From positions 47,245,525-47,309,524 of the forward strand of contig OZ023273.1 of assembly GCA_964007475.1 (NCBI GenBank): a stretch of 64,000 nt of DNA. Reading direction: 5' to 3'. The DNA is from Hybos culiciformis. Its lineage: Eukaryota; Arthropoda; Insecta; Diptera; Hybotidae. Of this stretch, positions 25,375 to 58,100 are shown one piece after another. The translations under genes and the position numbers were made by a program. How positions within the stretch are numbered: position 1 is the stretch's first letter; each line of letters begins with the position of its first letter. The notes below the pieces were generated by a model. That model had not been told where the DNA came from, searched no databases, and saw only the letters and a list, made by a program, of their open reading frames with translations.

Positions 25375-25657
25375 GGAGGGTGGAAACAAGGCCGCGGGAA
25401 ATAAGGCTGCAACGATTTTTGTTGCCGTCTTATTTCATTTTGAAAGGTGAAATTAGACCGGATCAAAATTCGATGGGGCCTTATTTCATTTTTAAAATTG
25501 AATTAAACCACCAATGAAATAGTTTTTTTTTGTCGCGGTTTGTGCAAAATGAAATAAGGTCGCGACGATTTTTAATTCCGGTTTTATTTCATTTTAAAAA
25601 ACGAAATTAGCCCCCCAACAAAAAGCCTATCGCGGTCTTATTTCACGCTGTCTTATT
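25375..25657. mobile_element. Degenerate foldback element, GAAATAAGGCCGCG type (FB-A)
   Basis: The left part reads GGAGGGTGGAAACAAGGCCG and continues CGGGAAATAAGGCTGC. The interior alternates the word GAAATAAG(G/A)CCGCG with its reverse complement (CGCGGTCTTATTTC) around AT-rich tips. The right end carries two decayed copies (CGCGGTCTTATTTC, then a diverged one). It is the same design as the element at 41207-41638 but more diverged. TTTATTTT occurs on both sides (25367-25374 and 25658-25665) as a possible target duplication, which is weak evidence in this sequence. No coding potential. Confidence 0.6.
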
Positions 25658-27136
25658 TTTATTTTATTACATTTACAAATCAATTTTGTCATTATTACAA
25701 ATAAAGTTTTAAGAATATTATGTTATCAAAACAAAAGCATTTAAAATTTTATAAAAATTTTAAAACTATGCCATTACTAAAATTCATTTCGCAACTGGAC
25801 TTACAACATTCGTTTCAAAAAAAAAAAAAAAAAGCGGCTCATAATGTTAAATTTATCACATAAATTATAAATTATGTAGTTTTCAAAAATGACTTTTTAT
25901 CATCTTAGACATGGACACATTAACGAAAAAAATATATATAATATAAATATGTATACATTTTTATTTAAAATAAAATTATTGTAGGCGTTCCTACAACAAA
26001 ATTAAACTTTTAACTTGTTGAGAGACTATTACAAAATATTCGAATTATGCTTCATATCATAGTGCAATATGAAACATGAAAAAAAAAAATTATATATATA
26101 TAGATAAAAACTACAAAAAACCGCACAAACTTTACCGGCTTTTATTAACTACAACTTGAATAACAACTTTTAAAATAAAAAAATTTATCACTTTTATTTA
26201 AGTTGGGCAAAAATCGATTAAAATATGCATTTATATTATATACAACTAGACTACACGTAAGTTTTTAATTTTGGGTTTCCGATCATCTTTTTTTTTCAAT
26301 GTTCCAACGGAGTTCGATGAAAATTAGTAGGTAGTAGTTATATGTCGGTTCTAGGTATACCCAAAAATGTTTAGCCTACGATAGTTTTCAATGACTTGAA
26401 CGGGGAGCTGAAAACGGATTTCGATGTTTTAACAGTATTCATAGTTCATTTAAAGAGGTAAAACTTTTAATTATCGACAAGTAGAAAATTTTTAAAATTT
26501 TGTAATTATACATTGCCATAAAACGTATACATTATATTACTGCTTACAAAAGAGAATTCTTTTAAATTCAAAACTTATGATTAGAAGGTTAAGCTATAAG
26601 TTAAGCTATAATCAAAACATTTGGAAAAAAAAAGTTTGTAGCACAAAAAAAAAAAAATTAATATATTTTTTTAACCAGAAATAGTGCAACATTCAACTCA
26701 GCTGTTTTTTTTTTTTTCGTGTTTCACTTTCAAATAACTCAAGGTGCACCTATATTATATTTTTTTTTATTACACTTATAATATAAAATTAATAAAAATG
26801 TGAATTTAAAGTTATGCAACAATTACTTGACGCAATTAATAATATTAGTGTTTCCATATTATATTTTTCTTTTTTTTTTTCTAAATCAAATAATGAGGCC
26901 ATTATTGTCTGTAGTCTATCTATACATAAATATAAAAATTAGTGTTTATTGTTCTTCAGTATAAAAAATTAAATAATAAGTATTTAATAAATTCTTTAAA
27001 TTAAAATGAATAAAAATTTATGGCGATAATTTTTTTTGCTTTTTTGGTTTCAATTAAGTAGAGCTTTAATATTTTTTTACTATTCGCGGGAGATCTTAAT
27101 ATATCTGTATAAATAGAAATAATAGTAGATTATTGT
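25658..27136. other. AT-rich DNA; no gene recognised
   Basis: Nothing coding and no bounded repeat recognised. Scattered less AT-rich patches near 26270-26420 show no homology I can name. Confidence 0.55.
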
Positions 27137-27307
27137 ATATGTAAACTAAATTTGTTATTAATTAAGATTTCTGTATACACAAAAATACATTGACACGAGT
27201 CAATACTTATATCACGAGACCGATGGTCGAGTGATATAAATTGACAAGTGTCAATGTATTTTTGTGTAAATACAGAACGAGTTGTATAACAAATTTTGTT
27301 TACATAT
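27137..27307. repeat. Long imperfect hairpin (about 80-bp arms)
   Basis: The stretch folds on itself nearly end to end. The outer ends ATATGTAAAC and GTTTACATAT pair, and the inner block CACAAAAATACATTGACAC (near 27177-27195) pairs with GTGTCAATGTATTTTTGTG (27248-27266). The tip pairs around ACCGATGGT near 27220-27228. It could be a short MITE or a transcribed hairpin. No clear target duplication, no coding potential. Confidence 0.75.
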
Positions 27308-29033
27308 CCAATATACTGTTTTAATGCGTAGGGGAGAGGTAGTTGCAAAGAGAGAATATATTTTCTTCTCATTTTTTCTCATTTTTTTTTTTGTATTTGG
27401 CTGCATTGAAATATTGTGAGAGATATTATGTTTGTTTAGGTATTACGTAATATTCAATACGAAACATCTAAATGATTTCATTATATACGCTGATGCATCT
27501 AAATTTTTTCATTATTTACGCAGATGCATCTAAATCATTGCATGTGTATTGACGCATATAATACTCCATTTAGTGATCTAAATTCTATAGCACTAAATAC
27601 AACATAACGATCCCCAACGCATTAAAAAATATTACAAATTTAATTTTCTTCAATTCAGTTATGAAATTTAAATTTAAGGCTAAGTACAAATTTGCATATT
27701 CGATCATAAATTTGAAACAAAAAAATAATTAGACACCAGCTATATACCGCCGATTATTTTTAAAAATATGTACAATCTATCTACATTATGAATTTCTGTG
27801 GCCGAGGTATACACCTAATATTCTTCATAATAAATTTTCTTTGCATCATCGCTACTAGTTATTTAACTTCAAATTCATTATATTAATTTTAATCTGACCA
27901 TAAAATCTATATATTTGCGTAAAATTAATTTCTGCCTCTCCTATTGTTTGACATCGTTTAAATCAAAAATTAACTCACGAAATACCTACAACATCAATAT
28001 AGGTTAATGGACTAAAAAAAACAAAAAAAAATTAAAATGCGAATAAAGTCTACATAAAGTTAAAATGTGAATATAATCATTAAAATGTAAAACACCCACA
28101 ATTTTTTATTTTTTATTTTTTTTTCATCTTTTCTAAATATATAATTTTAAGGTCCTTGTTCTCAGTGTGTCTGAACCTAAAATCCTTTTACAAATTAATC
28201 AATCTCAAGGAAAAAAAAGTTCAAAGCCATTCAGTGTCTATATTATTAAACGTTTTTTCTTTATATTTTGGAAAAAAGAAAAACAACCCAAATGAATGAT
28301 ATTGTTGTAAAATAAAATCAGTATGTATATGAAAAAAAAAAAACAAATTTAAAATAAGGTTAACGGCATACGCACAAAATTGTCCTTGTCAGATTTCATT
28401 ATCCTTTATAAAAGCATCAAGGATAAAAAAAATAAAAATAAAATTAAAATTAATTTTGTTTTTTTTTTTTTATAAAAAATTTTGCAGACATTTAATAGTA
28501 AAAATAAAATTCAGAACACACTTACCGCACAAAAATAATATGTACATTTACATTTTTATGTATATAAAAATCAATAAAGTCAAAAATTATATACAAATGT
28601 ATAGCTAAAATTGATGCTTCATATTATATACAAATTTTCAACTATATATAAGTCTAAGAAACGTCAGTAATGAAGAACACTCCAAGTATTATAAAATCAA
28701 ATAAGAAAATCTATGTGTTTCTGTACATTGCATACATATACAGTATATATTATAGTATGCTATGATATACTATGCAATGACTATGAATAAAAATTGTCTA
28801 AAAATTTCATAATAGTATAATAAATGTAGGTAACTAGGGATTTCAGTTACACAAGTAATAACATAGAATTAGAAAAAAAAAAAGATAAAAGATTCGAAAA
28901 CAGAGTTCAGTAAGACATTATAGTACAGATTGATATAGATTTAGTGATACATAAGATATTAGTGGTATATAAGATATTAGGGTTGTTAAAATTAGACCTC
29001 TAAACTTATCTTTATGTTAGAAAGTTTAGTAAA
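27308..29033. other. AT-rich DNA; no gene recognised
   Basis: No gene or bounded element recognised. At 27476-27560 the phrase GATGCATCTAAAT recurs two or three times within about 60 bp, a small degenerate tandem array. Confidence 0.5.
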
Positions 29034-29034
29034 A

Positions 29035-29253
29035 CCATAGATTAAGAATACAGAAAGGTGGGAAGCTTCATACAACATTATTTTTGGTATTTTTATGTGA
29101 ATGTGTGAGTAAAACAAAATAAAATACGTGATGATTATCAATATATGAAAAGAATTTTATTTAGTTTTTCTAACACATTCACATAAAAATACCAAAAAAG
29201 GCTGAAAAAATGTTGTATGAAGTTTCCAATCTTTCTGTATTCTTAATCTATGG
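29035..29253. mobile_element. Palindromic MITE with CCATAGATT termini
   Basis: A perfect terminal inverted repeat of at least 23 bp (CCATAGATTAAGAATACAGA and onward at 29035, reverse complement ending at 29253) extends with few mismatches through an inner arm. There GGTATTTTTATGTGAATGTG pairs with its complement near 29170-29195. TAAAA lies on both sides (29030-29034 and 29254-29258), a possible target duplication. Non-coding. Superfamily not assigned. Confidence 0.75.
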
Positions 29254-29258
29254 TAAAA

Positions 29259-32200
29259 CTTAAGTAAAATATAGAAAAAAATTATTCATTTCGTAAACCT
29301 ATAAAATATTTTTTCGAAAATTTTATCTATTTATTTAAGTATCTTTTATTTGTATCTTCATATAATGTAGTAATAATCGCAATTTTTTTAGCGGAAAATT
29401 TTTCATAGAACAACCATGGTCACCACACCACCATGATAAATTAAAAAGAAAAAAATACTACAAATTCATTTTTTATGTAGACGAGTATTCTATTCACCAA
29501 ACGCTCAATGATAACGTTTTTTTTTTTGGTTTGAATCAGATAAATAAAATTAGGTGAAAGAGTGTTAATTTTCAGCACACACTTAAGGCTTTAATTTTTG
29601 GTTTATGTATAATGCGATTTAAAAATAAATAAACAACAAAATTTTAAACAAGATTTTATTTGCTATTTTTGATCCAAAAATATAATTCTATGATAGTCCT
29701 TCCTTTGCTTAAAATATCTACATTATATTGCAGTAAGTACATGTCGATTTTGGTAGAACTACAATTCCGTTCGAATACATTATTGTCATACAGACATTAT
29801 AGCAAGTCCATATAATTAAAAATTTAAATTTGAATCACAAATTCATTTTTTTATTTTGCGTCTAAATTTACTGTAACCATATTTAACTTTTAATTAAATA
29901 AAAATGAAAAATATTTTTTACCAAAGTAGACTTTTCTAAATAATTAGGGGAAAACTTGGGAAACTATATAGACAATTATATTCTATGTATTTGAACAAAA
30001 ACTTTATTTGGTTACAAATGACATTTCAAATGAATGAATCTTTTATAAATATATTCATAATTAACTATGTTATTACACATGTATTGCTTCCAAATTGTTT
30101 CTATACACTATTAGGCCATTTAAATTAAAGAAAATCAATCAATCTAGCTAGAGACAATTTGTAGGGAATTTTTTTATTATTTCGTCTACCATTTGTAAAT
30201 TTTTTATAAGTTCATTGGAATGGAAATTGGTATAGATATTTAAAAAAAATTATTTTTTAAATATTATATAAAAACATTTAACGTAGGCACACTTCGTCTC
30301 ATTGGAATGGGTCAGACATATAGACATTATGGTTCTTGAACTTACAAATTATATATACCTTCATTTCTTCGAAAAAAAAACATTGATTTCAATATATCTA
30401 CATTATATGTTATATGTATATTTTATGTCGATATACATATGTACAATGTATGTACAGTTCATACATACTTAAATGTGTAGCTAGAAAAAAAACAATTTAT
30501 AAATATTTTATAGATTCAGATTAGCATTAGATGATGGTAAATTTAAGAATTCTATACAAATATATATGTAAATGATATAGGGAGTCTTTATTAGAAAAGA
30601 ATTTGAAATATATTTTTGGCCTTATCACATTAAATTGGTTATCTACCTTTCAAATTAATTTTTTTTTAATATCATAATGTCATTATTTTATTTTATATTT
30701 TATTTTATATTCCATCAAAACGCTTAGAATCGTCAAATATAACATTTTGTTGTTGCGGCACTCCAAAAGTGATACGCTTTTTCTTGAGTTCATATTTTGA
30801 TATTCTGATTCTGATCAGTCATGAGATTGAACTAAACTACATATAAATTATATAAATGAAATTTCGGAATGGTAAATAAGAATAAAGTAAGAGACAAAAG
30901 TAGAAGATAAAGATGATCGATCGAGAAGTTAAACTTTAATTCGCCTAAAAATTATGGTTGGTAATTTTCGAGATTGAAATTAATGTCTATTAACAAATTA
31001 ACAAGGGATGATGTTGCTTTGATTACAACTGGTTAATACAACTAGTCTTGCGTGCAAAAAAAATTTCGGTACACATCATTAGTAAAAGCCTATAACTAAT
31101 TTTTTGTGTTCTTTTATTACCAAACAATTAGGTTCTTTTATTTGAAATTTAGACCAGATTGCATTGAATATAGATATGTATAGAAAGATTTTCGACAGGC
31201 TTAAATGGAAAAGATCTTATCGATCGCCATACTTTATAATAATACATAAGCGTTTTAAAATTATTTCTCTTGTTGTTTCTAATAATGTCAATTTAAAACT
31301 GGTTAATTATTTATAAAATCAGTGTTTGCTTAATATTTGTTTATTTTTAGATTATTTAGTATAATTTAAAATATTTAAGAAGAGAATTTTATAAATCAGA
31401 TTGCATTGGCGAAAAAAATTCTTGAAAATTATTGGCACTATATGTATAAAATTCAATCACCAGCGCATCATACTCAACAAAAATTCCATGTCTGTATTAT
31501 ACATAAATATCTACTTATTAAATATCATATACTTATTGTACACACATATATTCCACGTATTGAATATATTTATATATGTATTATAGCTACATAATGTATA
31601 ATATCATTTGCGAAATATCTAATCTAAATATAATCCCTGCGTGGGAGTTGCTTTCTCGTTAGCTCGAACCTACAGCTACCAATTGTCACGATATTGTTTA
31701 TAAAATAAACTTTGTTTTATTCTTTGCTAATAAATACATATCCGTAGGACATAGGTTCTATTATGTTCTAAAAAACAATCAAATTATTACAGAAAAAAGT
31801 TTGAAAACCTGTACATTATATATTTATTGATAACGTTGAAACAAACAGACCTATACGTATACTTATGACAAAAATTATGTCACTATATTTTCATCAATTT
31901 TTATAACTTATCTTATCATCTTTTCCAGATGTTTGAGTTTACTATTTAATAACTGAACCAACTTTTTTCTGAATACTTAAAAAAGTGTTTAAATGGTAAT
32001 AAATTTACTATGTATTTACATTTTTATTTGAAATAGTTAAAATTTGAATAAAATTTTCGTTTTTTCGCTATAAATAAAGCGAAAAAATATATTTCCCTAG
32101 TATAAAATAAGTAATTTTTATCTACCTACTCTTTCTTGTCTCGTACATAATATCTAAAAATCATAAAAAAAACGAAGTGTAAGCTACCAAAAAATGATTA

Positions 32201-32623
32201 AAAACATAAAATGTAAACAAATAAACAAATTTATAGAATCAAAAAATAACTACATATACATATCCCTATCCCTCCCTATAATAATAATAATATTTTTTTT
32301 CAATATAAATAAACATAATAAACATTAACATTATTATTATATTATACACAAAATACCTACCTCTACCTAATATACCTATGAGTAATATAAACAAAAAAAT
32401 TAATTTATATGTTGAGACAGTATTATTTTGAGAGTCTGAATGTATCGATGTGAAAAAAAGAAATTGAAGAAAGAATTTATTGTAAATAATGAAATTTTTT
32501 TCATTTTTAAATTAATTTATTTTTTGAGTTTTATTATTAAAATTCTTTTTTTTTTATTATTATTTCCAGATCACTCATAAAAATCCAGTTATACCTATGT
32601 TAGGTATTTATGTTGATTAACAA
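29259..32623. other. Intergenic AT-rich DNA upstream of the F-box gene
   Basis: No gene recognised over most of this stretch. Near the right end, a pyrimidine tract and AG at 32568-32569 form a plausible splice acceptor. An untranslated exon of the F-box gene could then begin at 32570 and run into the coding start at 32624; its upstream partner is not identifiable. Confidence 0.5.
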
Positions 32624-34532: not shown

Positions 34533-35504
34533 ATTATAATTGTAACAAAATATAAATTAAGTGCTTATTTATGTTTCAATTATATAAAAAAAAAAAATCT
34601 AGAAGTTTTATTACCGTAAAGATATTTATTTACATTATGTATGATTGTGCTAAAAAATTTATTAAATAGATTCGTTGTAACTATTTCATGAAAATTGTAG
34701 CAATAAAGTTAATTTATTTAAAAATAAAAAATAATTTATTTTCGAACTTAAAAACATGAATATTGTAGAACTTGAAATTTAGGGGAATACAATGTAAAAT
34801 ATACGTAAGGCCATGATAGAGAATATTTTTCTTTTATGGAATAGATCAATACCAACACAAATTATAAGCTCTAGATACCTATTATACCTAATTTATCTTA
34901 AATTTAAAAAAAAATTCTAATTTGTTTTAAAAAAATATCTAGATATCGTACCCTAACTCTATTAGATGTTTTGGACAAAAAAGTTCAGTTAATAATAAAA
35001 AATTTAAAATGTTTTTTTTTATTCTCCATTTTAAAAATTATTTTTTTTTACTGAAACTAAAAAATTTATTATTTATTAATTTATATTCACTGTTAATTTC
35101 TTTTTAAATTAATAAAACTAAAAAAAAAAGCGAACAAAAAACACTACCGACCGAAATAGGGAACAAAAATTTGAAAACTATTAGGAATTTTTGTTATACC
35201 TACGAAACTTTTTGTTTACTTTTCAATTACACGGCTGATTGCCTTAGGTTAAGGAATAGATATATTATTTATATATTTATAAGACCATAACAGTTTATTA
35301 GTCCGATTTACATCTCGTTTAATTTTAATTTGCCTTGGTTTTAAATGTATTTAGTATACCTAGAATCTAGATAATTGAAAATGTATTAAAAAAAAGAAGG
35401 TAGGTGATTTCCGGTAAATAACTAAGGCACCTGACTGCCTGCATTACTTTTAATTACCGTTTGTGGAAATTTATATATGATTAAAAAAAAAAGATACTCT
35501 TATG
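34533..35504. other. 3' UTR of the F-box gene and intergenic DNA
   Basis: The 3' UTR probably ends shortly after the AATAAA at 34702-34707. Beyond that nothing is recognised up to the tRNA gene. Confidence 0.6.
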
Positions 35505-35577
35505 TGTTTCCGCCCGGGTTCGAACCGGGGACCTTGTGCGTGTGAAGCACACGTGATAACCACTACACTACGGAAAC
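35505..35577 (-). tRNA. tRNA-Val (anticodon CAC)
   Basis: Seventy-three bases fold as a full cloverleaf on the minus strand. The acceptor stem is GTTTCCG with CGGAAAC and discriminator A; the anticodon stem TGTGC/GCACA carries the loop TTCACAC (anticodon CAC); the T arm CCCGG(TTCGAAC)CCGGG contains an intact B box. A run of T downstream on the minus strand (about 35480-35490) supplies the RNA polymerase III terminator. It reads GUG valine codons. Confidence 0.97.
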
Positions 35578-35761
35578 GTGTCAGCGTACTGGTCAAATAA
35601 TTAATAATAACTTTTCCTTCGATTTTAAAATTCATTTTTATTATCGACGGCATCTGTTATTCGGTTTAAGTACTAGTATGGTATTAATGTGGATTAATGA
35701 AAATAAGACCAATTTGTACTTAATTTATTCAATAATTTTGTATGAACTTAAATTTATTTGT

Positions 35762-36372
35762 GACTAGTCGAAATACCCGGCTTCGCACGGTAGTCCCGAA
35801 CTTATATTAATATCAAAACGCGTTAATCCAGATTTCGTGCACTAAAAAAACAGATTTTCAAAATTTGTTAAATAGCCACTTCCCCGGTGCCTTAACACAT
35901 CCAGTCTTCTAAATAGTCGATTCGGGTCCAACCCTATAATATTTTATCGGAATATACCTAAATTGCAAAACCGCCTTCTAAGGTAGCCCCCGTCGATGCC
36001 TCAGATCCAAAATATAACCAATCGGGTCTCGAGACTCCTTATTTTCAAAATTTTAAAATTTCGAAATTTGTTGTATAGCCCCCCAATTGAGCCTTGGGAC
36101 GGTTGGGGGCATTTCAACATCCAGTTTTTTAAATAGGCTTTTCGGGTCCAGCGGTACTATATTTTATTGGAATATACCTATATTTCAAAACCGACTTCTA
36201 AGGTAGCGCCCCCGCCGGGGCTTCGGATCAAAATTTCTAGTACCCTATAACCATCTCGGGCCCCAATGATACTTAAGTTCAAAATTTCAGCTAAATCGGT
36301 CCAGCGGTTTAGGCGTGATTGAGGACAGAGAAACAGAGAAACAGAGAATTTTCATTTTTATTTATTAGATAA
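35762..36372. repeat. Dispersed repeat with CCGGCTTCGCACGG motif and internal 220-bp duplication
   Basis: The stretch opens with GACTAGTCGAAATACCCGGC followed by TTCGCACGG and closes with GGTCCAGCGGTTTAGGCGTG, GACAGAGAAACAGAG and TTTTTATTTATTAGATAATA. Phrases like these are common at the ends of dispersed repeats in many insect genomes; whether it is RTE-derived or Helitron-like I cannot tell. Internally, the block starting CCAGTCTTCTAAATAG at 35901 recurs at 36121 (CCAGTTTTTTAAATAG) and stays alignable through CTTCTAAGGTAGC, so two imperfect copies of about 220 bp lie head to tail. Confidence 0.7.
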
Positions 36373-36811
36373 TAAGAGGACAAACGCAAAATGTTACTTA
36401 CTAATTTCTATGTTCTACTAAAAACACTGTGTATATATATAACAAGAACATAATAAATAAATATAAACATATATATTATAAATATGAACATAAATTTTCA
36501 CTAGACCAACATTTGGTAGTTTTTTATTTATTTTATAAAGTTAAATTAGGTACTTTAAAATAATAATTTCGATGAGCAAACTTTAAAAAAATATTTATTC
36601 TCAAGTATGATTATTATTTATGTGCCTTGAGAAAAGCGAATTCACGAAAAAAAATTCATATTCAAATAAATGAATATGGTCACACCGTAATAAAAATTTC
36701 CCAAAAGGGGAAATTCTTAACTAGCAAAGACATACACCATTTGATTTTTTTATATATTCCTTGCGACAACTACTTTTAACAAATAGAAGTTTTGACAAAT
36801 AGCTAACATGT
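36373..36811. other. Intergenic AT-rich DNA between the repeat and tRNA-Val(AAC)
   Basis: Nothing recognised; no coding potential. Confidence 0.6.
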
Positions 36812-36884
36812 GTTTCCGTGGTGTAGCGGTTATCACATCCGCCTAACACGCGGAAGGTCCCCGGTTCGATCCCGGGCGGAAACA
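36812..36884 (+). tRNA. tRNA-Val (anticodon AAC)
   Basis: Seventy-three bases form a cloverleaf: acceptor GTTTCCG with CGGAAAC plus discriminator A, D arm with TGTAGCGGTTATCAC (A box), anticodon stem TCCGC/GCGGA with loop CTAACAC (anticodon AAC, wobble A presumably modified to inosine), and T arm CCCGG(TTCGATC)CCGGG (B box). A T-rich terminator follows at about 36891. The acceptor and T stems are the same as in the tRNA-Val(CAC) gene on the opposite strand 1.2 kb to the left. Confidence 0.97.
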
Positions 36885-38091
36885 TTTACTTTTTTTACAT
36901 AAATTCAAAATTATTTTAAACTAATTAATTTTACGGGAACTATACGATAGTTTTTTGTTTGAAAAAAAAATTAGCACTTAATCTTTCTTTGGAAACCCAT
37001 ATTTACAAATATAATTATATATAATATATAAAACATTTTAATATTCAACATCCATATTAAAGAGATGAAATATTATTTTATTTTTAAAAATCTTCATATG
37101 CTATATTTATTCAAAAATCTTTTAATGTGTAGGTATAAGAATTTAAACGAATCGATCGCAAAATAAATTAAAACTCAAATTTTCTTTTCAGATTCTTGCG
37201 ATCCGAATCATAGTTAATTTAATCTTTTAGTAGCTATCAGTTTTTTGTGGGTTTTGTCATTTTTATATAATCAAAATTAAATTTTTGATTTGTATTAAGG
37301 TTCAGACTTTAGGACCAAATAAAAATTTCAAATAAATTATTTCTTTGACGTTACAAAATTATAAGTTTTTCAAATGAATACAAATCAAAAATAAAATGTA
37401 AGTAATTGAAGGTCAAATTAGTACTTTTTAAAAATTTAAGTTATAATAGTTAAAATTAATAAATTGTATAATAAATATTTTTTGGGAGGATTCTAATTAG
37501 ATTTGTTATATATATTTTAAGCAGGAAATTGATGAAATTCTATTGCTATTTTATAATTGAAAACTGGTGGTTGGTCAGTGGGATTTCCGGTGCCAGCGTA
37601 TAGTTCGTTTTTTCATTTTTGATGGAAAAGGGACTAAAAACTACGATGACACCATTAAAACCAACATCGAAAGAAAAGATATAAGATTTAAGGATAGATG
37701 GTGTCATATCTGAATACGGGTTGGGTGTATTCCTAAAGGCATAAAGAAAAATTAATATCTAATTTGTACTTTTCCATTAAAAATTTATTAAAAACTCATG
37801 CATTTAATATTTTACTGCAAACAACTGATTGGATTCTTGATGTATACAAAATTTTCTCTAAAAGGGCGTAAATTTTCGTCCTTGCTTAGGGCGCAAGTTT
37901 GGAAAGTCCCGACTCTGGTTGTATACAGAAGAAAAATTTCTAACTTTTGCATTATTTTATGTTACTCTTATTATAATATAATAAATATAATAAAATTATT
38001 TAGTAAGACCTTACCTACCTATAAATATAATACCGTTATAAATATAATAATACGCACATCTTGATTTATTTATATTGTTCGAAAACATACG
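36885..38091. other. AT-rich intergenic DNA with a short foldback-core relic
   Basis: Mostly featureless. At about 37566-37598 the reverse complement of GGTTGGTCAGTGGGATTT matches the GC-rich core of the foldback element at 41207-41638 (AAATCCCACTGACCAACC). At 37860-37925 there is a less AT-rich patch of unknown origin. Confidence 0.5.
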
Positions 38092-39090: not shown

Positions 39091-41206
39091 AGGCTTTTTT
39101 TTGATTATTAAGAAAATATTGTATGTATATAAGATTTTAATGATTTTTCATATATTATATTATATTGAAAAAAAAATTTATAATATACTTTTGAATACTT
39201 GACGTCAATACAGATTGTCATTATTATTTAGATTTAAAAAGATAAAATTTTGCTCTTTTAATTTACCAAACATAGCACTGGTTATAGGTACATTGTTGAC
39301 GCCACATTTTATGGATTCATGTGAGCAATGAGCACAAATGATAAATTAGAAAGAAACCAAGTCTATGCAATATAGAAGAATAAAACTCATCTTGTGATGT
39401 GGCCGTGATAAGAAAAAGATTGAAGTGGGCTTTAGATGCAAGGTTAGAATACAAGGTTATCAACACTAACACCGAAGAGTCATATTATAATCACAACATA
39501 ACTTTTAGAAAAAAAAGAATTAAAACTATGTAAAACAAATTTTTTTTACCAATATTGTAAGATGTAAGATTGTAAATTATACTTAGTTCTATAAAAAAAA
39601 GTTCATTGGCTAACTTAGGGATGGAGTTCCAGGCCTGACAAAAATTTTATTGCCAACTTGTACACTTTATTTTCTATGTATTTATAAGTAAAATAAAATA
39701 AACCGTTAAAAACATTGAAGGCTAATATTAAATTCACACAGTCCTTGAAAGTTTTATGCCTTAAAATTTTCCGTGGAAACTAGAAAGTTAATTCATTTAA
39801 TCGTGATGATCGGGGGTACCTTATTTAAAATCTATAAATTGGAAAAATATTTGTAAATAATTTTTTATAATCGTACACAATATTATCCTTTATTTATTCG
39901 ATTTTAAGAATAAAAATGTATGAAAGTATATTAAAGATTAAAAATACAAACATTGTTGAGGTAAACATAATAGTCTATATACGTAATAACTAATAGGTAT
40001 GGGAAATGAATTTCATTCAATTTTTCAAGGCTATTATAATAATATTTATACATATTTAGTTGATTTCAATTTTCTAGGAATTTAATTAACTAAATTTAAT
40101 TTATTTTTCCGTTGCTTTATCGAAAATCTTTATTATTCTATATGTATGTATCTATGTTATTTACATTTCTATAACTAAATTATACTAAATAAAAATTTTA
40201 TTATGTTATAATTTGTTTAATTTGAGTATAGAAATTATTAAAATGGTTGAAATTGGTCTGTTACTTTCTTGGTACTTTGTTCTATTACTATTCTGGTGGT
40301 TTATTTTATAATATTTCAAATATTCTAGATCGTGAGTTGGACCATGAAGGGAAAAAAAAAATTATATTGCAAATACATAGTTTAGAATACATTATGTTAA
40401 TAAATTTTTGTTTCAATTATTGGTAAATATTGTTTAATTAGTAAAAATAATTTATTGCTCTACTCTACACTATAGAACACCTTGAATAATTAAAAATTAA
40501 TGCAACTTTTTTGTATGTAGGTACAAAGTAAACAAATCTGAAAAATCTTGTTTTGATTGAATTTTATCTTAATAATTTAAGGAAGCTATATTTCAATTTT
40601 ATACCACCCAGTCCATTCATTATACCAAAAAGAACATAATCAAAAGATTTTAAGTTTATTTTTTCTCTCATTTAAACAAAGTAAATTAAGAGCTTTTTAA
40701 ATATGCCAACATATTTTTATACACATTTGAAATAGGTTCTTATATGGAAAAAATTAATATAATTTTCCTGAAAATTTGACCCCTAACTCATCTTTATTAT
40801 GTCGACAGGAATATGCTTATTATTGGATTTTAACTATATTACATTTATTACATAATTCAGTTTTGATTTGTAATAAAATATAAAGTTATATTTTTGATTT
40901 CACATGTGATTGTCAAAACTTTTTTTTTTTCGAAACAATCGAAACTAGTATAATTCTTTTATAAAGCCTACGCCTACCAGAAATTCTAAGACATTCTTAT
41001 AAGACATTCCATCTATAAAAAATAAAATAAGTCAATATTTTTTATTAATTGTTATAGTAGTCGCTACTATAAAAAAAATCGTATATATTTGTTTATAAAG
41101 ACGTAGGTATTCTTAAAGTTGATAACTTAAAAAAATTAACACAATTGATAATATAATGTTTTTATCATTATTTAACATATTTTATATACCCAATAGAAAC
41201 TTAGAG
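39091..41206. other. AT-rich intergenic DNA; no gene recognised
   Basis: Nothing coding or bounded recognised before the foldback element. The last bases, AACTTAGAG at 41198-41206, are that element's target-site copy. Confidence 0.55.
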
Positions 41207-41638
41207 GCGCAGTGAAATTAGGCCGCGGGAAATAAGGCCGCGATGTTTTTTTGTTGCTAGCGCCGCAAATCCCACTGACCAACCGCCCGCCCGCCGCCCT
41301 GCTGCCCCCTGCCCTGTGTGCTCACCTCACAAGATTACGCGGCCTTATTTCATTTATAAAAATGAAATTAGCCCTCCGAATAATTGTTTTTTTTTTGTCG
41401 CGGTCTTATTTCATTTTTTAAAACGAAATAAGGCCGCGAGGAATTTTTTGCGGTCTTATTTCATTTTTCAAAATGAAATAAGACCGCGAGGATTTTTTCG
41501 CGGCCTTATTTCATTTTGAAAAACGAAATAAGGCCGCGAAAAAATCTTCGCGGCCTTATTTCATTTTGCAAAATGAAATAAGACCGCAACAAAAAAACGT
41601 CGCGGCCTTATTTCCCGCGGCCTTATTTCCATCCCCCG
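41207..41638. mobile_element. Foldback element, GAAATAAGGCCGCG type, with 9-bp target duplication (FB-B)
   Basis: Identical 9-mers AACTTAGAG flank the element (41198-41206 and 41639-41647). From the right end, the inverted reading is CGGGGGATGGAAATAAGGCC, then GCGGGAAATAAGGCCGCG. The left end reads GCGCAGTGAAATTAGGCCGC and then GGGAAATAAGGCCGCG. The right two-thirds alternates GAAATAAG(G/A)CCGCG and its complement around tips such as CATTTTGCAAAATG, giving a chain of palindromes. A GC-rich core at about 41258-41333 (CCGCCCGCCCGCCGCCCTGC) resembles the core of the element at 51960-52971. No coding potential. Target length and architecture recall Drosophila Foldback elements; sequence identity with them is not claimed. 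Confidence 0.85.
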
Positions 41639-41647
41639 AACTTAGAG

Positions 41648-44600: not shown

Positions 44601-44916
44601 ATTTTTAAGTTTTTACTGCAAATAAACTAGACTAAATATTCATTTTATTAAGAACGACACAACCATGTTTTGCATCAATATTAAATGTTAACGAAATTCA
44701 TACGAAATGTTCAAAAGTAAACTATTTATAAATTGTACAATGTGTCTGTACATATATTACACAAAGCTTATGTAAAAAATTATTAATATTTAGGTATCCC
44801 GGTCGATCACCACTCAAGTGTACATTTGTACTACTGACGAATAAAAAAAAACATAAATCTTATAATAAAAAAAGAATATATTATTTCCGGATGCTTAGAT
44901 AAAAGAAGTATCTGTA
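41648..44916. other. AT-rich intergenic DNA; no gene recognised
   Basis: A 200-base less AT-rich island at about 41950-42190 carries a 67-codon minus-strand frame (42202-41999) that I do not recognise and would not call a gene. The rest is AT-rich, with long A/T and TATA runs around 43000-44000. Confidence 0.5.
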
Positions 44917-46256: not shown

Positions 46257-46258
46257 TA

Positions 46259-48420: not shown

Positions 48421-48473
48421 AAATGCTAAGCGGACCGTATGTGGCCCGCAGGCCCTAGTTTGGGCACCACTGG
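48421..48473. mobile_element. Solo hAT-type terminus
   Basis: The right part of the sequence, read on the minus strand from 48473, is CAGTGGTGCCCAAACTAGGG followed by CCTGCGGGCCACATACGG. This is a typical end of hAT elements in animals. No partner terminus was found nearby, so it is probably a truncated insertion. The left limit is approximate. Confidence 0.65.
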
Positions 48474-50177
48474 ACTATAGACTATAACAAGCATTTTATA
48501 AATTATTGTTTATACCAAGCATTTTATAAAATATTTTCTTATTTTAAGAGTAAAAAATTGGAATAAATTTGAAATCAAATTGTGATATTTTAAGATGTTA
48601 ATATTTTAATATTATGTAAGTTAAGTAATTTAAGATAATGAACAATTACGAACAAAATAAATATTATTTTGTAACTAATTATCATGGGTATATAATTAAT
48701 TAATTTTTATATATTAAATTACAAATTTTCAAATCTAAATTACCCAATGATTAGAACTGTACGTACAGACGTACATAACATATTCAAAAGTTTTTTAATT
48801 TATTTTTACATTTCAATAGTTAAGCTACGTACTATACTATATTATATGATATATAAGCAATGTATTAGGTTAATTATTACACGTCTTTAAAAACGAATTC
48901 ATAAAATTATTAACGAAACTTTTTCGATTTTTCACCCTTAATTTTCTAATATTGTATTATTGTTATCTATCATGATCATGCATTTAAGTTAGAAATTTAA
49001 GTATTAAAAAATAATTATTATCTGCATTGATACATACTAATACAAAAAAAGCAGACACTTTTTTTTTTATATTCCATCAACTAACGTTTCTTACGTACTT
49101 AATGAAGTTTTTGGATTTCAAATAGTTTATTAAAAGTTAATTATATTAATCCAAATGGGCCTCTGTAATCGATTAGAATTTCAGTATAAAAAAATGTATA
49201 TGTGAATAAAATAACTAAATAAAAAAAGGATAATATTTTTTTCATGTTGGTAGAAATTTCTAGTATCGGATATTCCCCAATCAACACTAAATATTTGATT
49301 TTAACATAAAAAGGAAATCGTATAGCCTTCAGAACATATCTTTTTATTTTCCATATAAGTAAATAATCAGTATGTCCCTTAACTTTAATTTTATTATAAT
49401 ATAAAGTCCATGTTATTAAATTTTAATAACATATCAAATTACCAATATGTTAGTTAGGATAAAAAAGAAAACTTTTAAAAACCTTCTTCTTTGTGCTATT
49501 GAAAAATCTATTTGTATAACACTAAATAAGAGACCAGTACCGAATTCAGAAATCCTTAGCGATTAATAAAGAAAACAAACTATCACAGTAGTTACATATC
49601 CGAGTTACTTTCTGTCATCACAACACCTTGGATTTATTTTCAACATACATAATCATCAACTGTTAAAATGATTATAATTTTATTTTCGAATGAATTCGAC
49701 ATTGCTTGTTTATTAAATTATATTAAAAAACTAAAACTTAATTTCTTTAATAAAACAAGTTTTTGAAAAATTAATATATAATTCTCTTATTTTAAGTTCA
49801 AAATTCAATCATTGAGTTATAAAAATTTTTTGCAGAAATGCAATTAAAAAATTTAATCGAAAACTGACACGGGTTTTTTTTCATTATAACATGTTTTGTG
49901 ATTTTTAACTTAGATTCAAAGCTTAATTTTTTCTTAGCCCGTTTTCCACCAAAAATTAAAATGGACTATATGTTTTCATTAAATGTCAGTCCGCCACCAA
50001 AATACTTATAATTTTTAAAGTAGCAAAGCAAGGCTCTCAACCAGCAATGGATTTAAATAACTTTTATATATTTTTATGGTTTTCGACCAAAATGGTGTAT
50101 TAGTATTACCATTCACTTGAATTAAGTGTTTGTGTTGTTTTGAAGCGGTTCTTGAAGCGGTATTAAATTTGTTTTGT
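48474..50177. other. AT-rich intergenic DNA; no gene recognised
   Basis: Nothing recognised up to the poly-T (poly-A of the inverted retroelement) at 50178. Confidence 0.6.
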
Positions 50178-50686
50178 TTTTTTTTATTAAAGTTACCAAA
50201 TCACTAGGTGGGATACTTTTTATACTTAAAGAAGTATGGATTTGGTAATGGGGACAGGAAGTTTAGACGGGATTAAAAAGTTAGGAGGTAATCATTTACA
50301 CTCTTCTTAAAGCGGCGCAGGTCGTAAATCAAACGACCGCCAGCTGTCGGGAACAATTTTGTTGGGAGAGCATTCCACATTCTCGAGGTGCGAACTGAAA
50401 ACGAATCTCCGAAGCTCGTTCTATCACATCTGGGAATTTTGACGGAATATGGGTGTGCCGTTGAGGCGGTACGTGTTTGACGTGAAAATACTTGAAGTGA
50501 AGGAAGTAGGGCTTTTACTTCCAGGGAACACGTATCCGTTCTAACAAGGTATTTATAAAAAATGGAAAGTGAACCTACATTGCGACGGTGACTGGGTGAT
50601 GTAAATGAGCTGGTGGTTTGATGATTGTTTATCAATCTAATAGCCCTTCTCTGAACTTTGTCCAGGTACTCAAGGTGTCTCGCTGA
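50178..50686 (-). mobile_element. 5'-truncated 3' fragment of the jockey/CR1-like retrotransposon
   Basis: On the minus strand the reading starts abruptly near 50686 (RHLEYLDKVQRRAIRLINNH) and runs through RRNVGSLSIFYKYL, DSFSVRTSRMWNALPTKLF and YDLRRFKKSVNDYLL to a stop at 50273. The short 3' UTR (CCCACCTAGTGATTTGGTAA) is the same as in the copy at 13905-16098 and ends in poly-A (poly-T here at about 50178-50186). It is the classic product of incomplete target-primed reverse transcription. The frame is less disrupted than in the longer copy. Confidence 0.92.
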
Positions 50687-51959
50687 AAAATTAAAGTAAT
50701 TGTAAGAAATGAAAATACCAAAATATGTTAATGTACGGTTATTTTAATATTTAAATTTAAATTAAAAGAGTTATAGCTGTAGTTTTAAAAGTTAGAAAAT
50801 GGAATATGTAACATACCTATATGCAGTGATGATATTCAAAATTTTTAACAACTGGTACGGTTGAATAAAGAAATTTGAGATACTCATATAGTATTTTATA
50901 GTAAAAAAAAAGATTAATATCAAATATTAAATTTTGGTTTTGAAAGTGTATTAGGGTGAATTTTCTAAACGTTTATATCACTTGCCAATTGGATGTCTTT
51001 GTAGCAATGTTGTCGTTACTCGTTTCTTGTTTTTATATTTAGTAAATAATTTCGTTCACAATCAGGAATTCTCAGTTCTGAAAATACTATTTAAAATATT
51101 TTCTGCTTCTATGTATCTCGTCTCGTCTATGTATCTATTGTATCAAAGTCTCTTAAGTCGTTTTCTGAAGCGTTTAATTTTATAACTTTAGTTATTTAAC
51201 GAAGTCCAAAAGTATTATGAACCTGTACGGAAAACTTTGAAAATTTTAACAAACGAACCTTACCGCACCTTACCTCCTGAATCTGACTACTGCCTTAATG
51301 TAGTTAATTTGATAATAGTATATCAAATGTACCTAAATTAAGAACCTTTTTTACTATGGAAGTAGTAACAGAAAATAGAAAAAAAAAATGTTTAAATTGT
51401 TTTCCTTTACAAAAAAATATTTTTTTTTACTATGACCGGAAGTAGGTACTTCCAAATATAATTTACAAAAGCGAAAAATAATCTTTTTAAAGGAAGTTAA
51501 AGAAAGTGAAAGTGAAAATTGATTTTCTCTCCTGTTAGTTTATAAATAGAGTCTTTCTTTTTATAATTTAGATATCCTTAAGAGTTTTGAAAACAATCTG
51601 ATACTGAGTGGGACATTAAAAAGTTCAGGTCCCAAGCTTTAAAAGCTATATTGGTAATTATTTCTTTAAACTAAAAAAGTAAAAAAAAATGTTACTCGAC
51701 CGATTTCGATTATATTAATTTGCAACCTCGTTAACCAAAGTGTGAAATTCTTCGAGTGCGAACATTGGAAGTTATACAAGCTTTCGACCGATAAAGATTC
51801 GAAATTACATATTTTATTTATATACCCTGGGGGCTGAAAATTGGTTTGTGACTTGATGTGAATTACAGAAACATAAAAACAGTTTATCAATCGAAAATAA
51901 AGATTCGACTGGGAACGGAAAACAGCTATCAATATTTTCGATAGTTTATACATAAATAT
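50687..51959. other. AT-rich intergenic DNA; no gene recognised
   Basis: Less AT-biased than most of the window, but no exon or repeat identified. Short frames at 50982-51185 and 51666-51953 have no recognisable family. CATAAATAT at 51951-51959 is the left target copy of the adjoining foldback element. Confidence 0.5.
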
Positions 51960-52971
51960 GGCTACAGGACATAACCGCGAATGTCATAACCGCGAAACTT
52001 TTTTGTCATAACCGCGAAATAAAAAATAAAAATGTCATATCCGCGAAAAATGTCTTATATTTTTTTTTGTCATAACCGCGAAAAAATATGGCAAAAAATT
52101 GAAAAAATTTCGTTTTGCGGTTATAACAAAAATTTTTGTTATAACCGCGAAACACAAAATTTCGATTTTTATCATTTCGCGGTTATAACAAAAAATTTAG
52201 TTAAAACCGCGAAATGACAAAAATCGAATTTTTGTGTTTCGCGGTTATAACAAACATTTTTGTTATAACCGCGAAACACAAAAAATCAATTTTTATCATT
52301 TCGCGGTTATAACAAAAATTTTTGTTATGACCGCGAAACACAAAAACTCGTTTTTTTTCATTTCGCGGTTATAACAAAAATTTTTATTATAACCGCGAAA
52401 CACAAAAACTCGATCATTTTGAAAAATGAAATAAGACCTCGATAAAAAAAATGGTGTGCTTACCAGACCTCGAAAAAAAAATGTTGTGGGATAAGCACAC
52501 GGAAGGGAGCAGCAGGGCAACGGGCGGGCGGTTGGACCAAACGCCCGCCCGCCGCCCTGCTTCCACCCCTCCCGTGTGCTTACCTCACAACATTTTTTTT
52601 TCAAGGTCTTATTTCAGTTTTCAAAATGATCGATTTTTTGTGTTTCGTGGTTATAACAAAAATTTTTGTTATAACCGCGAAAATTCGATTTTTGTGTTTC
52701 GCGGTTATAACAAACATTTTTGTTATAACCGCGAAATGAAAAAAATCGAATTCTTGTGTTTCGCGGTTATAACAAAAATTTTTGTTATAACCGCGAAATG
52801 ACAAAAATCGAATTTTTGTCATTTCGAATTCGCGGTTATGACAAAAATAAAATTAGTTTCGTGGTTATAATAAACATTTTTGTTATAACCGCGAAACTCA
52901 TACAAATTCTAGTTTCGCGGTTATGACAAAAAATTTTCGCGGTTATGACATTCGCGGTTATGTCAGTTCAT
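51960..52971. mobile_element. Large foldback element, GACATAACCGCG type, with 9-bp target duplication (FB-C)
   Basis: The identical 9-mer CATAAATAT lies at 51951-51959 and 52972-52980. The left end reads GGCTACAGGACATAACCGCG, then AATGTCATAACCGCGAAA. The right end inverted reads ATGAACTGACATAACCGCG, then AATGTCATAACCGCGAAA, so the first 45 or so bases of both ends match. The body is a chain of alternating TTTCGCGGTTATAACAAA and its complement, with tips of the type AAATTTTT. At 52481-52592 sits a GC-rich inverted core: arms 52481-52530 and 52541-52592 with CGGGCGGGCG and CGCCCGCCCG innermost, around a short spacer. Long reading frames here on both strands are read-through of the repeats (e.g. 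FRGYNKNFCYNRE), not genes. Confidence 0.88.
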
Positions 52972-53331
52972 CATAAATATTCATATTTTTGTTAGGCATA
53001 CTGAATTAAGAATTTACCAAAACCGAATTGAACAGACGAAAGATTTAATTCACCTCAATAAATATATATTTCATTCTTGAATATAATAAACTATAAACAA
53101 AGTAATATATCATAAACATTAATGTTTGCACGTTTTACAAAAAAAAGTAATCAATTCCAGACGATATTGTTCTTACTTCGAAATTAATAATTAAATAATT
53201 ATTTTACCAAATTAAATATCATTTCCGGCTGTAAGATAAACACTAAAAAAAATAATTAAGGAAAAATTGTGAAGCTGTAAATAAAACAAATGTTGGGATT
53301 TTTTTTTTATTACAAATTATATGATTATGAA

Positions 53332-53335
<4 letters not shown>

Positions 53336-53365
<30 letters not shown>
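53336..53365. repeat. (TA)n microsatellite
   Basis: About 30 bases of uninterrupted TA dinucleotides, upstream of the RasGRF gene. Confidence 0.95.
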
Positions 53366-53368
<3 letters not shown>

Positions 53369-53519
53369 TTTACATTATAGGTTTAAATGGTTTATAATAC
53401 AAAGGTCAATCTAATAATCTTTAATAATTTTAAAACTTTTCTATAAATATATATGTATGTATATGTATATATAAGTTACTAGGTATATTTTTTATAATTA
53501 ATTATTTTTTATTTTTCAG

Positions 53520-53655
53520 GTGTTGAAAAAATGTTTTCTCAGTACAAGTCAATAAAACTATTTACCAATAGTTATAAAGAATATTATATTTTTATATGGT
53601 ATATATCTGTGAATTAAATTAATTTTAATGAAATTAAAAGAAAGAATTTGTTTAA
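53520..53655 (+). other. Probable 5' UTR part of the first visible RasGRF exon
   Basis: A pyrimidine tract ending in AG at 53518-53519 is a good acceptor, so the exon carrying the start codon probably begins at 53520 and has an upstream untranslated exon outside the recognised sequence. Two upstream ATGs are present: a 28-codon uORF at 53531-53617, and a 35-codon frame at 53628-53735 that overlaps the main start in another frame. Confidence 0.5.
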
Positions 53656-55185
53656 ATGTTAAGCCCGAAAATGCAACGCTCTGTTCGTGTGAACGAGAGC
53701 CAATTATTGATGCTATCAGATCGTGCCCAGTATGATCATTCAATGGTAAGTGTGTACATTTGTGTATCTGTAATAAATCTACATAATATATCTAGAATTG
53801 TTTTGCAGGATGTGAAGTGTATTTGTATATATTTTACACATATATACTAGCTGAGTGTGGCTGATTTTATCTATTATAATCTACTAATTCGATTTAGGTG
53901 TTTTTAAAATTCAACAACCACTAGACCAATCGACACCATATTTGAATCTAATGCTAGTTTGCTCTTCTCTTAAGTTTGGACCGGGTAGGTGGTGAGATAT
54001 CCTACAAATATCCTGTGTCGGTTCGTCCAGTTGTTCTTGATTTTTAGAAGTACATACCCGAATATTCGATTTTCATATTTTAAGAAGATATAAAAATGAG
54101 TGGTGAAAACATAACTTCAGCTCAGCTGAAACTTTGCATGCAAAGGAATATTTTTTTAATATTTATCGTTCTTTTTCAAGTTTTACTGCCTATTTCATAC
54201 TATTTTCCTATTCTTGTAAACATGCGATTCAAATTTTAATTGAAATGTAAATAAAATGCTGTATATTTAATAATAATACATAGGTACCTACATTACATTT
54301 TATTAAAATGATTGAAATTGAATGTTACTTATTCAACGAAAAAACTAAGAAAACTGTTTGTAACTTTCTTCCTTTTCTCAATTACAAGACTCAGAAAAAA
54401 ATCTTCATTTTATTTTTAGCATGGTTATTTGTACAAAAGAACATCTGATAGTAATAAATGGCAATTAAGATGGTTCATATTATATCAGGTAAAGGTTATG
54501 ATTTTTTTTTTCTAAAAAAGCTTTTGGTTTGAAAACAGATCTAGTCGTACTAAAGCAAATCTACAATTTAATTCTTATAAGAAAATTCAATCGAAGAAAA
54601 GTCATAATTAGTTTGTGACCAGGAACGAATGGCTTTCAAAAGCAATTTTGCACCAAAAATGTTAATTTTAAAATAACTCTATACTTATATTATATTATAT
54701 ATATAATCTTTCTCTTCCTTCAGAACATATTATTCTATTATGAAAATGAGCACGCTCAAAGACCATCTGGAATAATATTTTTAGAAGGATGTTATTGTGA
54801 AAGACTTGTTTCAGCGCCCACATGTTTGAATTCCTTAAATCCACCATCGGGACAAGGATCAAAACCTTCCAAGGAAGAAAAATTGCAGGTAAATTATAAA
54901 TCATAAGTAAATATTATAAATCATAAGGAAGTATTAAAAACTTATTTTCTTTGGGATATGATATATGAAGTTAATGATTGGAAAATTTTCAATCATTATA
55001 AAAAATTCTTATTATTGCAAGAAAGTTTATTAATGGTTTTTTTGTTTTGTGATAACAATTTATTCTCTTAATTTTTAGCATTGTTTTTCTATATCATATC
55101 GTCGTGAAAATCAACGACAATATGAGCTAAGAGCCGGAACTGAGTCGGAATGTTCTGCATGGATTTTGGCAATTAGGGAAGCAAG
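53656..55185 (+). CDS. RasGRF: RasGRF exons 1-4: N-terminus and first PH domain
   Basis: Exon 1 (53656-53745) encodes residues 1-30. Exons 2-4 (54420-54488, 54724-54888, 55079-55185) encode a PH domain, roughly residues 30-145: [19 protein letters not shown] in the first strands, LFYYENEH and [13 protein letters not shown] next, and the C-terminal helix with the invariant tryptophan in [14 protein letters not shown]1 helps membrane recruitment in the family. All three introns before exon 4 are phase 0; exon 4 ends in phase 2. Confidence 0.93.
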
Positions 55186-58100
55186 GTAATTATTTTTGGT
55201 CTATGTACGAATATCAAAATTAATATCAAAATAAGAAAAGACTAAAAATTTCGAACTTTCGTGAAACAATGTCAATGGAAAATTGTTTCATATAATTCTT
55301 ACCTATAGAAAAAAAATTATGTCATGTACGATGTACATATGTACAATTGAACATAATGTAACCAAAAAGCTTAAACAAATGTTAAGTTTTCTCTATATGT
55401 CCACACTCTATCTTGAAGTCTTATATTTGCTTATTATTAATTCATTTGATAAGTGCTTCTAACATTGTTCATACTAATATAATTTTAATTTTTTTAGCTT
55501 CAACAAACTTTTACTCCAAAAGGAAGAATTAGAACAGAAACATGTTCATTTATTACAAGTTGTTGAAAGTGAAAAAACTGCCAAATGGCAATATACTCAA
55601 CATTGTGAAGAACTGGCATCAGAAATAAAGAAATTACGAGCCGAGGTAAGAAAATATAATCATTTGAAGTTTTGAAATCAACAACCATTCAATAAATGGC
55701 ACGACCACAATCTTTGAAATACAAAATATGGAAATATTGATGTGTAATATCAGAATATATCTATTTAAAAGTCCAATAATAGCATCAAAAGTGTTATTTT
55801 TAAAATCTTGCAAACCCAAAACTATATAATTTTGTTCATTTAATTATTTTAAAAATATATTTATAGATATGTGCATTGAGACGCGAATGTAAATCGTCAG
55901 TATCAAGCACTCCGGTTAGACGAGAGAGTTTTGCAACAGTTATTGAACCGCCACCTACTGAAGAAAATACTAATTTAACTGGATTATGTTCGCAAGTTCA
56001 AGACTCAGTTGAGCTAAGAAAAATAAAAAAGGTAATTAATTTGAAACATTTATTTCTGTTCCTATTGGCGCCGTGACATTTGTCCGCGATGAAATTTGTA
56101 TGGAAAACTTCGCGGACAAATGTCATTTTGCAAAATGTCATTTGTCCGCGATTGTAAAATGACATTTGTCCGCCGCGGACAAATGTCCCAAAATTAGCGG
56201 ACAAATGACATTTTGCAAAATGACATTTGTCCGCGATTGAATTTTGTAACTTTAGCGGACAAATGTCATTTTGCAAAATGTCATTTGTCCGCGATTGATT
56301 TTTCGAATTTTTAGCGGACAAATGTCATTTTGCAAAATGTCATTTGTCCGCGATTGAAATTTTTAATTTTTAGCGGACAAATGTCATTTTGCAAAATGTC
56401 ATTTGTCCGCGATTGATTTTTCAGTTTTTTTAGCGGACAAATGTCATTTTGCAAAATGTCATTTGTCCGCGATTAATTTTTATCGCGGACAAATGACATT
56501 TTGGAAAATGTCATTTGTCCGCGGCGGACAAAAGACATTTTGATTCGCGGACAAATGTCATTTTTATGTCCGTGATACAAAAACAAATCGCGGAGAAATG
56601 TCCCGCGGACAAATGTCCAACCCCCTTCCTATTCACGGTCCTCAATTTAAATAAGAAAACTAATTATTAATATAATGTTCAACTGTCGCACATATAAAAT
56701 ACTTAAGTTAAATTTAATGTTTTTAGGTCCAAAGTTTTTTTCGTGGCTGGTTGTGCCGACGTCGATGGAAACAAATTGTCGAAGAATACATAAAATCTCC
56801 ACATGCTGAGAGTATGAGAAAAAGAAATCATCTGGTATTCAGTATGGTGGAAGCTGAAGAAGAATACATGGAACAACTAGAAGTAAGAGACAATTGACTA
56901 AAGTCAAATTCAATTGAATCCAATTGAAGGTCTTCAAAACTATCTGCTTCTAATTATAAAAAGTACAATATTTTTCTTTATCTTGTATTTTTTTTCAGGT
57001 TTTAGTATCATGTTTTCTAAGACCATTTAGAATGGCAGCAAGCTCAAAACGTCCACCGTGTACACATGAAGATGTCAATTCAATATTTTTGAATTCTGAA
57101 ACAGTTTTATTTTTACATCAAATATTTTTAAAAGGACTAACCTCACGTCTAGAATCTTGGCCAACTTTAGTTTTAGGTAAAAATTTATAAAATTTTCGTA
57201 AAATTATAAGATTTATAAAATTTACAAAAACTCAATAATGGAGTTTTTTAATCTTCTAGGTGATTTATTTGATATGCTCTTGCCAATGCTGAGTATTTAT
57301 CAGGAATATGTACGAAATCATCACTATAGTTTACAAGTTCTAACAGAATGCAAACAAAATCAAAATTTTGCAACAGTATTAAAAAGATTGGAAGCTAAGT
57401 CGACTTGCCAAGGACGCAGTTTAGAAACATTTTTAACATATCCTATGCATCAGGTAACGATTATAAAAATTTTAAATTTTCAATAGATTTTGCAATAAAT
57501 GTATCATGAAAAAAATGTTTTATAGTGTTATAAAGTGCATACGCAACAAAATCTCAAAAATTAAAATTTTTGTTTTTTTCTTCCACTTTAATAAAATGTG
57601 CACAAACCCAAAGTCCAATCCTATTTAATAAGTTATATTTTTAGATTCCGAGATATATAATAACATTGCATGAATTATTGGCACATACTCCACATGACCA
57701 TGTAGAGCGAAAAAGTTTACAAAATGCCAGACAACAATTGGAAGATCTTTCTCGTCAAATGCATGATGAAGTGTCAGAAACTGAAAATTTACGAAAAAAT
57801 TTAGCGGTTGAACGAATGATAGTAGAAGGTTGTGATATATTATTGGACGTCAATCAGGTTTTTGTGCGGCAAGGTAAAACTGTACTATTTCTGTTTTAAA
57901 AAAAAAAAAAAATATTTCTACCAAAGTTTTAATGAAATTTAGTTTCTGTTTTAGTTAGGGTGAATGGTCTTGAATTCTTGATATATAGCTCATTAGCACC
58001 AGCCTTGATATAAAACTCATGGGAACTAGAATTCAAGACTCAATACCTATCAGAGACATTGAATACACATTAATTTCAACTATTATCCTCATATTAGTCA

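Follow-up and report, generated by a model that had tools for sequence, protein, structure and literature searches.

Four foldback loci in one window

Why the arms of foldback elements should consist of repeated short words, and by what route an entire array comes to change its word, is an open question. The window examined here (the whole stretch of 64,000 nucleotides that was analysed, C1:47245525-47309524 of a 342-Mb genome, about 25% GC) bears on it. A sequence-only reading of this DNA had described four loci, FB-A to FB-D, as chains of palindromes, each with its stated word, and had taken them for a possibly undescribed kind of mobile element. All four chains are present in the window with those words, and 58 of the 72 CCGCG/CGCGG sites of the window fall inside them. 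FB-D, which alone was folded, forms as single-stranded DNA a fold 26 standard deviations below that of shuffled sequences. FB-B, FB-C and FB-D are each inserted between two exact copies of an 8-9 bp direct repeat, and the limits given by these duplications lie within 1-2 bases of those drawn in the first reading. The features are the following.

25375..25652, minus strand: FB-A, old and distantly related to the B family (similarity to B, ends read), with an A2-type end GGAGGGTGG at the left and an A1-type end at the right
37563..37598, plus strand: lone, armless half of a D-type core (ACTGGTGGTTGGTCAGTGGGATTTCCGGTGCCAGCG)
41206..41637, plus strand: FB-B, B-family element of 432 bp, ends A1 GGCGCAGTG and A2 GGGGGATGG (L024 of the copy set)
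41198-41205 (left) and 41639-41646 (right), no strand: target-site duplication AACTTAGA of FB-B, with one extra G at the right
51960..52971, plus strand: FB-C, a member of the C family in which arms of C words enclose a B-like interior
51951-51959 (left) and 52972-52980 (right), no strand: target-site duplication CATAAATAT of FB-C
52414..52629, no strand: B-like interior of FB-C, with a B-word remnant GAAATAAGACCTCG (52428-52441) and the GC-rich core, its centre lost
56067..56625, plus strand: FB-D, a shortened derivative in the D family that lacks the GC-rich core, ends A1 GGCGCCGTG and A2 GGGGGTTGG (L001 of the copy set)
56059-56066 (left) and 56626-56633 (right), no strand: target-site duplication TTCCTATT of FB-D

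The longest match of FB-A to FB-B, on the minus strand, has 72% identity over 255 bases, and a further one has 80% over 127 bases; the AT-rich flanks of FB-A leave its duplication uncertain. Since FB-A is an old B relative, there are three families and not four independent elements: the words are family-specific, as had been proposed, but A has no family of its own. In FB-B, most of the left arm is gone, up to the dyad centre. The interior of FB-C was read by eye in the window, the match to B being measured on a full-length C copy (L069). The half core at 37563-37598 may be what is left of a broken element, or a vestige of the sequence from which the core derives.

Two other inverted pairs lie in the window. 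The pair at 35505-36884 was rejected as a foldback, as it consists of two oppositely oriented tRNA-Val genes (35504-35577, minus strand, CAC anticodon; 36811-36885, plus strand, AAC anticodon). The segments 15592-16099 and 50169-50677, about 34 kb apart, are 90-94% complementary; a reverse-transcriptase-like frame, seen by eye beside one of them, indicates that they are probably two retroelement copies.

Genome copies, ends and target-site duplications

BLAST searches of the genome gave at least 274 matching stretches for FB-B (best 40 of 1086 candidates scored), at least 285 for FB-C (best 40 of 768) and at least 117 for FB-D (best 40 of 1266 first-look candidates). The terminal word dimer, searched as CCGCGGGA(A/C)AT-N1-9-CCGCG across the assembly, occurs at 1627 places (825 + 802), against 2 + 0 for the same pattern read backwards as a control. 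The frame GA..CCGCG with family-specific words, put forward from the window, is supported.

Copies with both ends were parsed from fetched loci (n = 65; 22 B, 19 C and 24 D). The sample is not random: L001-L038 are the loci that match the elements of the window best, L039-L068 were the first hits of the pattern on C1, and L069-L087 were picked as long copies of C and D. In all, 84 end pairs were read and same-sequence repeats dropped; the set of 65 leaves out three window duplicates and keeps two overlapping readings of L012. Exact flanking repeats of 8 bp or more, scored with one base of shift tolerated at either end, are found in 60 of the 65 copies (40 of 9 bp, 19 of 8 bp and one of 11 bp) and are absent in the other five. 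When flanks were shuffled between copies, such a repeat appeared in 0.18% (in a set enlarged by the window copies, where 63 of 67 copies have a real one). The lengths of 8 and 9 bp fall within the 8-10 bp range of Phantom (MULE) target-site duplications.

A complete element has a single A1 end and a single A2 end. The parser that gave the 84 end pairs itself demanded this combination; without that demand it is found in all of 10 D and 9 C loci, and in all of the 24 loci, among the 30 of L039-L068, where both ends were seen (some of them the same element), L044 holding one further lone A1 end. The A1 ends read GGCGCAGTG in B, GGCTACATG in C and GGCGCCGTG in D, and the A2 ends GGGGGATGG in B, GGTGAACTG in C and GGGGGTTGG in D. 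The idea of mobile foldback elements with matching termini is borne out, with duplications of 8-9 bp.

Phantom elements in the same genome

A scan of the genome for the MULE transposase family gave at least 145 matches (150 of 167 candidates scored), and 3.8 kb were read around each of four of them (L089-L092). L089, L090 and L091 encode proteins of 462-466 aa that combine an N-terminal FLYWCH finger with a MULE domain, which is the Phantom plan, and their nearest named relatives are from two hoverflies and Bactrocera; the MULE of L092 is of the ZSWIM type. Duplications flank the three Phantom copies, in order CCCAATATC (9 bp), AAAAAAAT (8 bp) and TTTTAAAT (8 bp). Each copy has two unlike G-rich ends and a subterminal word array; the words, 14-16 bp long, are CACTGTATTTTCATTT, AAAATCCCAAAAATT and AATTCTGTATTACAA. 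The words of B, C and D measure 12-14 bp and likewise form a family-specific subterminal array. Moreover, GGGTTGG opens the A2 end of all three Phantom copies and closes that of D (GGGGGTTGG); the A2 ends of B (GGGGGATGG) and A (GGAGGGTGG) are one or two bases off it, and it is absent from that of C (GGTGAACTG). Two one-sided stretches of 801 bases beside further MULE matches contain arrays of about ACCTCGAAAAAAAA (L093) and CCGGGATTTTGTTTT (L094), the latter linked by AATCCC to the word of L090; both may be Phantom, judging from the length of the MULE match.

The same architecture is known from Tm1 of root-knot nematodes, a Mutator/Phantom element with A1 CGGTTAA, A2 CCTACCC and the motif GGA, whose repeated motif of about 14 bp was CGATTCAGTATCCGC in the first elements described, the species consensus ending in TATCGC (PMC3169594). 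Tm1 resembles B, C and D in its asymmetric A1 and A2 ends outside the repeats, its arrays of about 14 bp, its 9-bp duplications and its mostly non-autonomous copies; it differs in its tandem words and in copies described as senescent (PMC3169594). The words of L089-L091 and Tm1 run head to tail, whereas B, C and D are built mostly of head-to-head modules, their compared full-length copies are about 99% alike, and a shared core links the three word families. From the plan shared with L089-L091 and the layout of Tm1, B, C and D are read as non-autonomous Phantom-type foldbacks, a membership suggested by ends, duplications and arrays; the A2 end of C and the head-to-head modules speak against it. 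The best explanation as a whole, to which we give a probability of about 0.8, is that they are non-autonomous Mutator/Phantom foldbacks moved by cut-and-paste by Phantom-type transposases encoded elsewhere in the genome. That they are an undescribed kind of element, a possibility raised by the sequence-only reading, is not supported, given Tm1 and the Phantom copies of this genome; the words of B, C and D are undescribed in the consulted parts of the literature on Tm1, Muta1, Tetris and Galileo, of the MULE phylogeny (PMC6446971) and of the 2026 arthropod MULE survey (PMC13359780).

An autonomous copy with a transposase between matching termini had also been envisaged. No CCGCG word array with a transposase gene was found at the six MULE places read out of at least 145 matches (three whole Phantom copies, the ZSWIM-type one and the two one-sided 801-base stretches), and tblastn over the collected loci detected no FLYWCH + MULE transposase inside the B, C and D copies read. 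On C1 up to 26.2 Mb, the sole stretch with a gap-free list of word-dimer places, there are two MULE matches, neither less than 5 kb from a word dimer. In a separate locus, L088 (contig C476, 138000-147999), a 7.1-kb tandem unit combines retroelement-like frames with the left-hand portion of a C element, and tblastn detected no Phantom gene in this array.

Other known systems and rival origins

Muta1 of Aedes aegypti, assigned to the Phantom group (PMC6446971), has been called a type 2 foldback with many non-autonomous derivatives; it shares with the elements of the window, in a comparison of layout and not of words, duplications of 8-9 bp and inverted repeats with 12-bp subterminal repeats, and it differs in that it encodes a transposase, which is functional in yeast, and the elements in the window encode none (PMC5225508). 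Galileo, of the P superfamily in Drosophila, is also a foldback whose arms contain several sites bound by its transposase (PMC3688188) and which has chimeric copies (PMC3573991), but its duplications are of 7 bp and its transposase is of the P type (PMC3573991; PMC3688188). A Galileo-like origin is thus rejected on the duplication length, 8-9 bp here. Tetris/DAIBAM of Drosophila virilis is a non-autonomous foldback with duplications of 8-10 bp and arm repeats, which are about 220 bp long and not a 14-bp word (PMC4079207).

Foldback arms arose independently in several superfamilies (PMC3169594; PMC4079207), and elements of another one (Rehavkus, Drosophila FB-like or hAT) might have converged on this layout. 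Rehavkus, for which 9-bp duplications and inverted repeats of 26-400 bp are listed, is defined by a transposase with a PHD finger together with those duplications (PMC6446971); in our copies the duplications are of 8 or 9 bp, and no cognate transposase was seen in the copies read, nor at the six MULE places read out of at least 145, a result that leaves room for convergence. The GGGTTGG end, the A1/A2 asymmetry and the arrays of words of about 15 bp match, however, the Phantom copies of the same genome, and the mixture of 8 and 9 bp duplications fits Phantom and Muta1 (PMC5225508), which makes another superfamily improbable. Tandem and palindromic structure is also what ordinary satellites or chance palindromes, formed without transposition, would display; dispersed insertions with exact 8-9 bp duplications (60/65) and fixed asymmetric ends refute satellites, leaving this origin practically no weight, and the loci are mobile rather than unrelated satellites.

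Inheritance of the word arrays

The question of how a whole array changes its word can be addressed by comparing copies. The sequence-only reading had stated that all words agree inside an element and had suggested that each lineage is homogenised. Words were compared in copies close to the maximal length (8 of B, 8 of C and 9 of D), a choice that favours young ones; the mean pairwise identity of these copies is 99.0-99.2%, and the lowest 97.7%. Words at the same position differ between copies by 0.80% (B), 0.41% (C) and 0.49% (D), whereas words at different positions within one copy differ by 6.3% (B), 5.4% (C) and 8.0% (D). Neither is borne out by these full-length copies: the words of an element differ on average by 5-8%, and young copies share variant words at mostly fixed positions, which indicates that the arrays are inherited as blocks.

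Alternatively, gene conversion or hairpin-templated repair might act continuously at each locus and keep its words uniform while the lineage drifts as a whole, and words that are alike within an element and unlike between families are what such a process would produce. Conversion after insertion predicts, however, the opposite of the observed ratio (5-8% within a copy against 0.4-0.8% between copies at the same position), so that homogenisation in place is contradicted for the young copies and a continuing process appears very improbable. Conversion may have acted in the master before its burst, or in older copies.

Block inheritance is most simply explained if the copies of each family come from one recent master, the change of word dating to that master or before. 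Modules (word, tip, word) follow one another at near-regular intervals, of 62 bp in C and, where D is regular, of 52-60 bp, a spacing that suggests that a single module was copied in tandem. A new word would thus become an array by tandem copying, in one master, of a two-word module (reverse word, CATTTTGCAAAATG-like tip, word), and bursts of the master would yield copies carrying the whole array as a block. With three word families in many near-identical copies, and Phantom elements with other words, the question becomes testable in one genome.

Shared core, exchanged interiors and deletions at the palindrome centre

A GC-rich dyad, GTTGGTCAGTGGGATTTGCGGC-N4-reverse complement, is common to B, C and D in many copies; 11 of the 22 B copies and 6 of the 24 D copies have it in intact form. 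A GC-rich core shared by B and C had been noticed in the window, where D lacks the core and B and C lack its centre; the sharing is real but not confined to these two, since many full-length D copies have the core. In the C element of L069, positions 456-838 are two tandem copies of the B interior (reference, B 272-483 of L027), 86-87% identical, and the B-type word GAAATAAGACCTCG still adjoins the core; outside this segment the search gave no match between the C arms and B. The D core matches those of B and C over about 110 bp at 79-81%; the D arms are 64-82% identical to those of B, and no match was found between D and C arms. Interiors would pass between families by recombination or gap repair, and such an exchange explains C arms around a B interior. 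Galileo copies with the arms of one subfamily and the interior of another have been described (PMC3573991). What is new here is C arms holding two B interiors, D sharing the core, and the clustering of B deletions at the palindrome centre.

Deletions of at least 20 bp occur in 12 of 22 B copies and span or abut the dyad centre in 11 of these 12. Of 16 B deletions, ten have at least one end no more than 10 bases from the centre, where random placement predicts 1.1 and none of 20,000 simulations reached 10; the 16, from 12 copies, were counted singly and are not all independent, as L024 (FB-B of the window) and L025, both of 432 bp, may share one event, and limits inside repeats can shift by a few bases. 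In D, tested without 10 copies (the short derivatives L001-L008, L037 and L055), 2 of 11 deletions have endpoints near the centre (1475 of 20,000 simulations, not significant) and 5 of 11 span it (80 of 20,000, a weak signal). Incomplete elements ending within the core were found in L052, L054 and L059, the last at its very centre. The breakage of hairpin tips belongs to the general background of palindrome instability. An extruded hairpin cut at its tip and then resected would explain the centre deletions, the elements that end in the core and the lone half core, and such breakage at the dyad centre would trim many copies; the B deletion pattern points to this kind of event.

Words as putative binding sites

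By analogy with Galileo, each word of about 14 bp is likely to be a site for the FLYWCH domain of a particular Phantom family, and many weak sites together would give the array its specificity. The FLYWCH domains of L089 and L091 are 56.5% identical, and the words of both hold CTGTATT; that of L090, with an AATCCC-based word, is 27% and 39% identical to the other two, and the protein part 150-466 is 56% identical in all three pairs. FLYWCH identity thus agrees with word similarity, three families being too few to establish a correlation. In Galileo, the DNA-binding domain of the transposase binds several arm-repeat sites, and the domain of one subfamily shows partial, weak or no binding on the arms of others (PMC3688188).

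Words can be matched to FLYWCH domains, and chimeras such as C show an exchange of arms and interiors. Exchanged arms carry other words, and, if words are binding sites, the enzyme able to move the element would change with them. A more speculative view, tentative and on balance doubtful, is that one hairpin core sits on the arms of three transposase specificities, the core (for C, with the adjoining B interior) being re-armed with new word arrays and so escaping dependence on one Phantom family as the FLYWCH readers diverge. If true, B, C and D would form a natural series from which a recognition code linking FLYWCH domains to words could be read.

Two further palindromic stretches were seen beside the Phantom copies. 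In the end region of L089, at about 480-740, there is a nested palindromic stretch built on GACATAAAGTC and ending in GCACCCCCCC, perhaps a further word family, and past the end of the copy in L091, at about 3433-3801, lies another palindromic repeat, GTTGTAGGGTAAAAGTTAGGTAGGAATTTGTTGCTCC.
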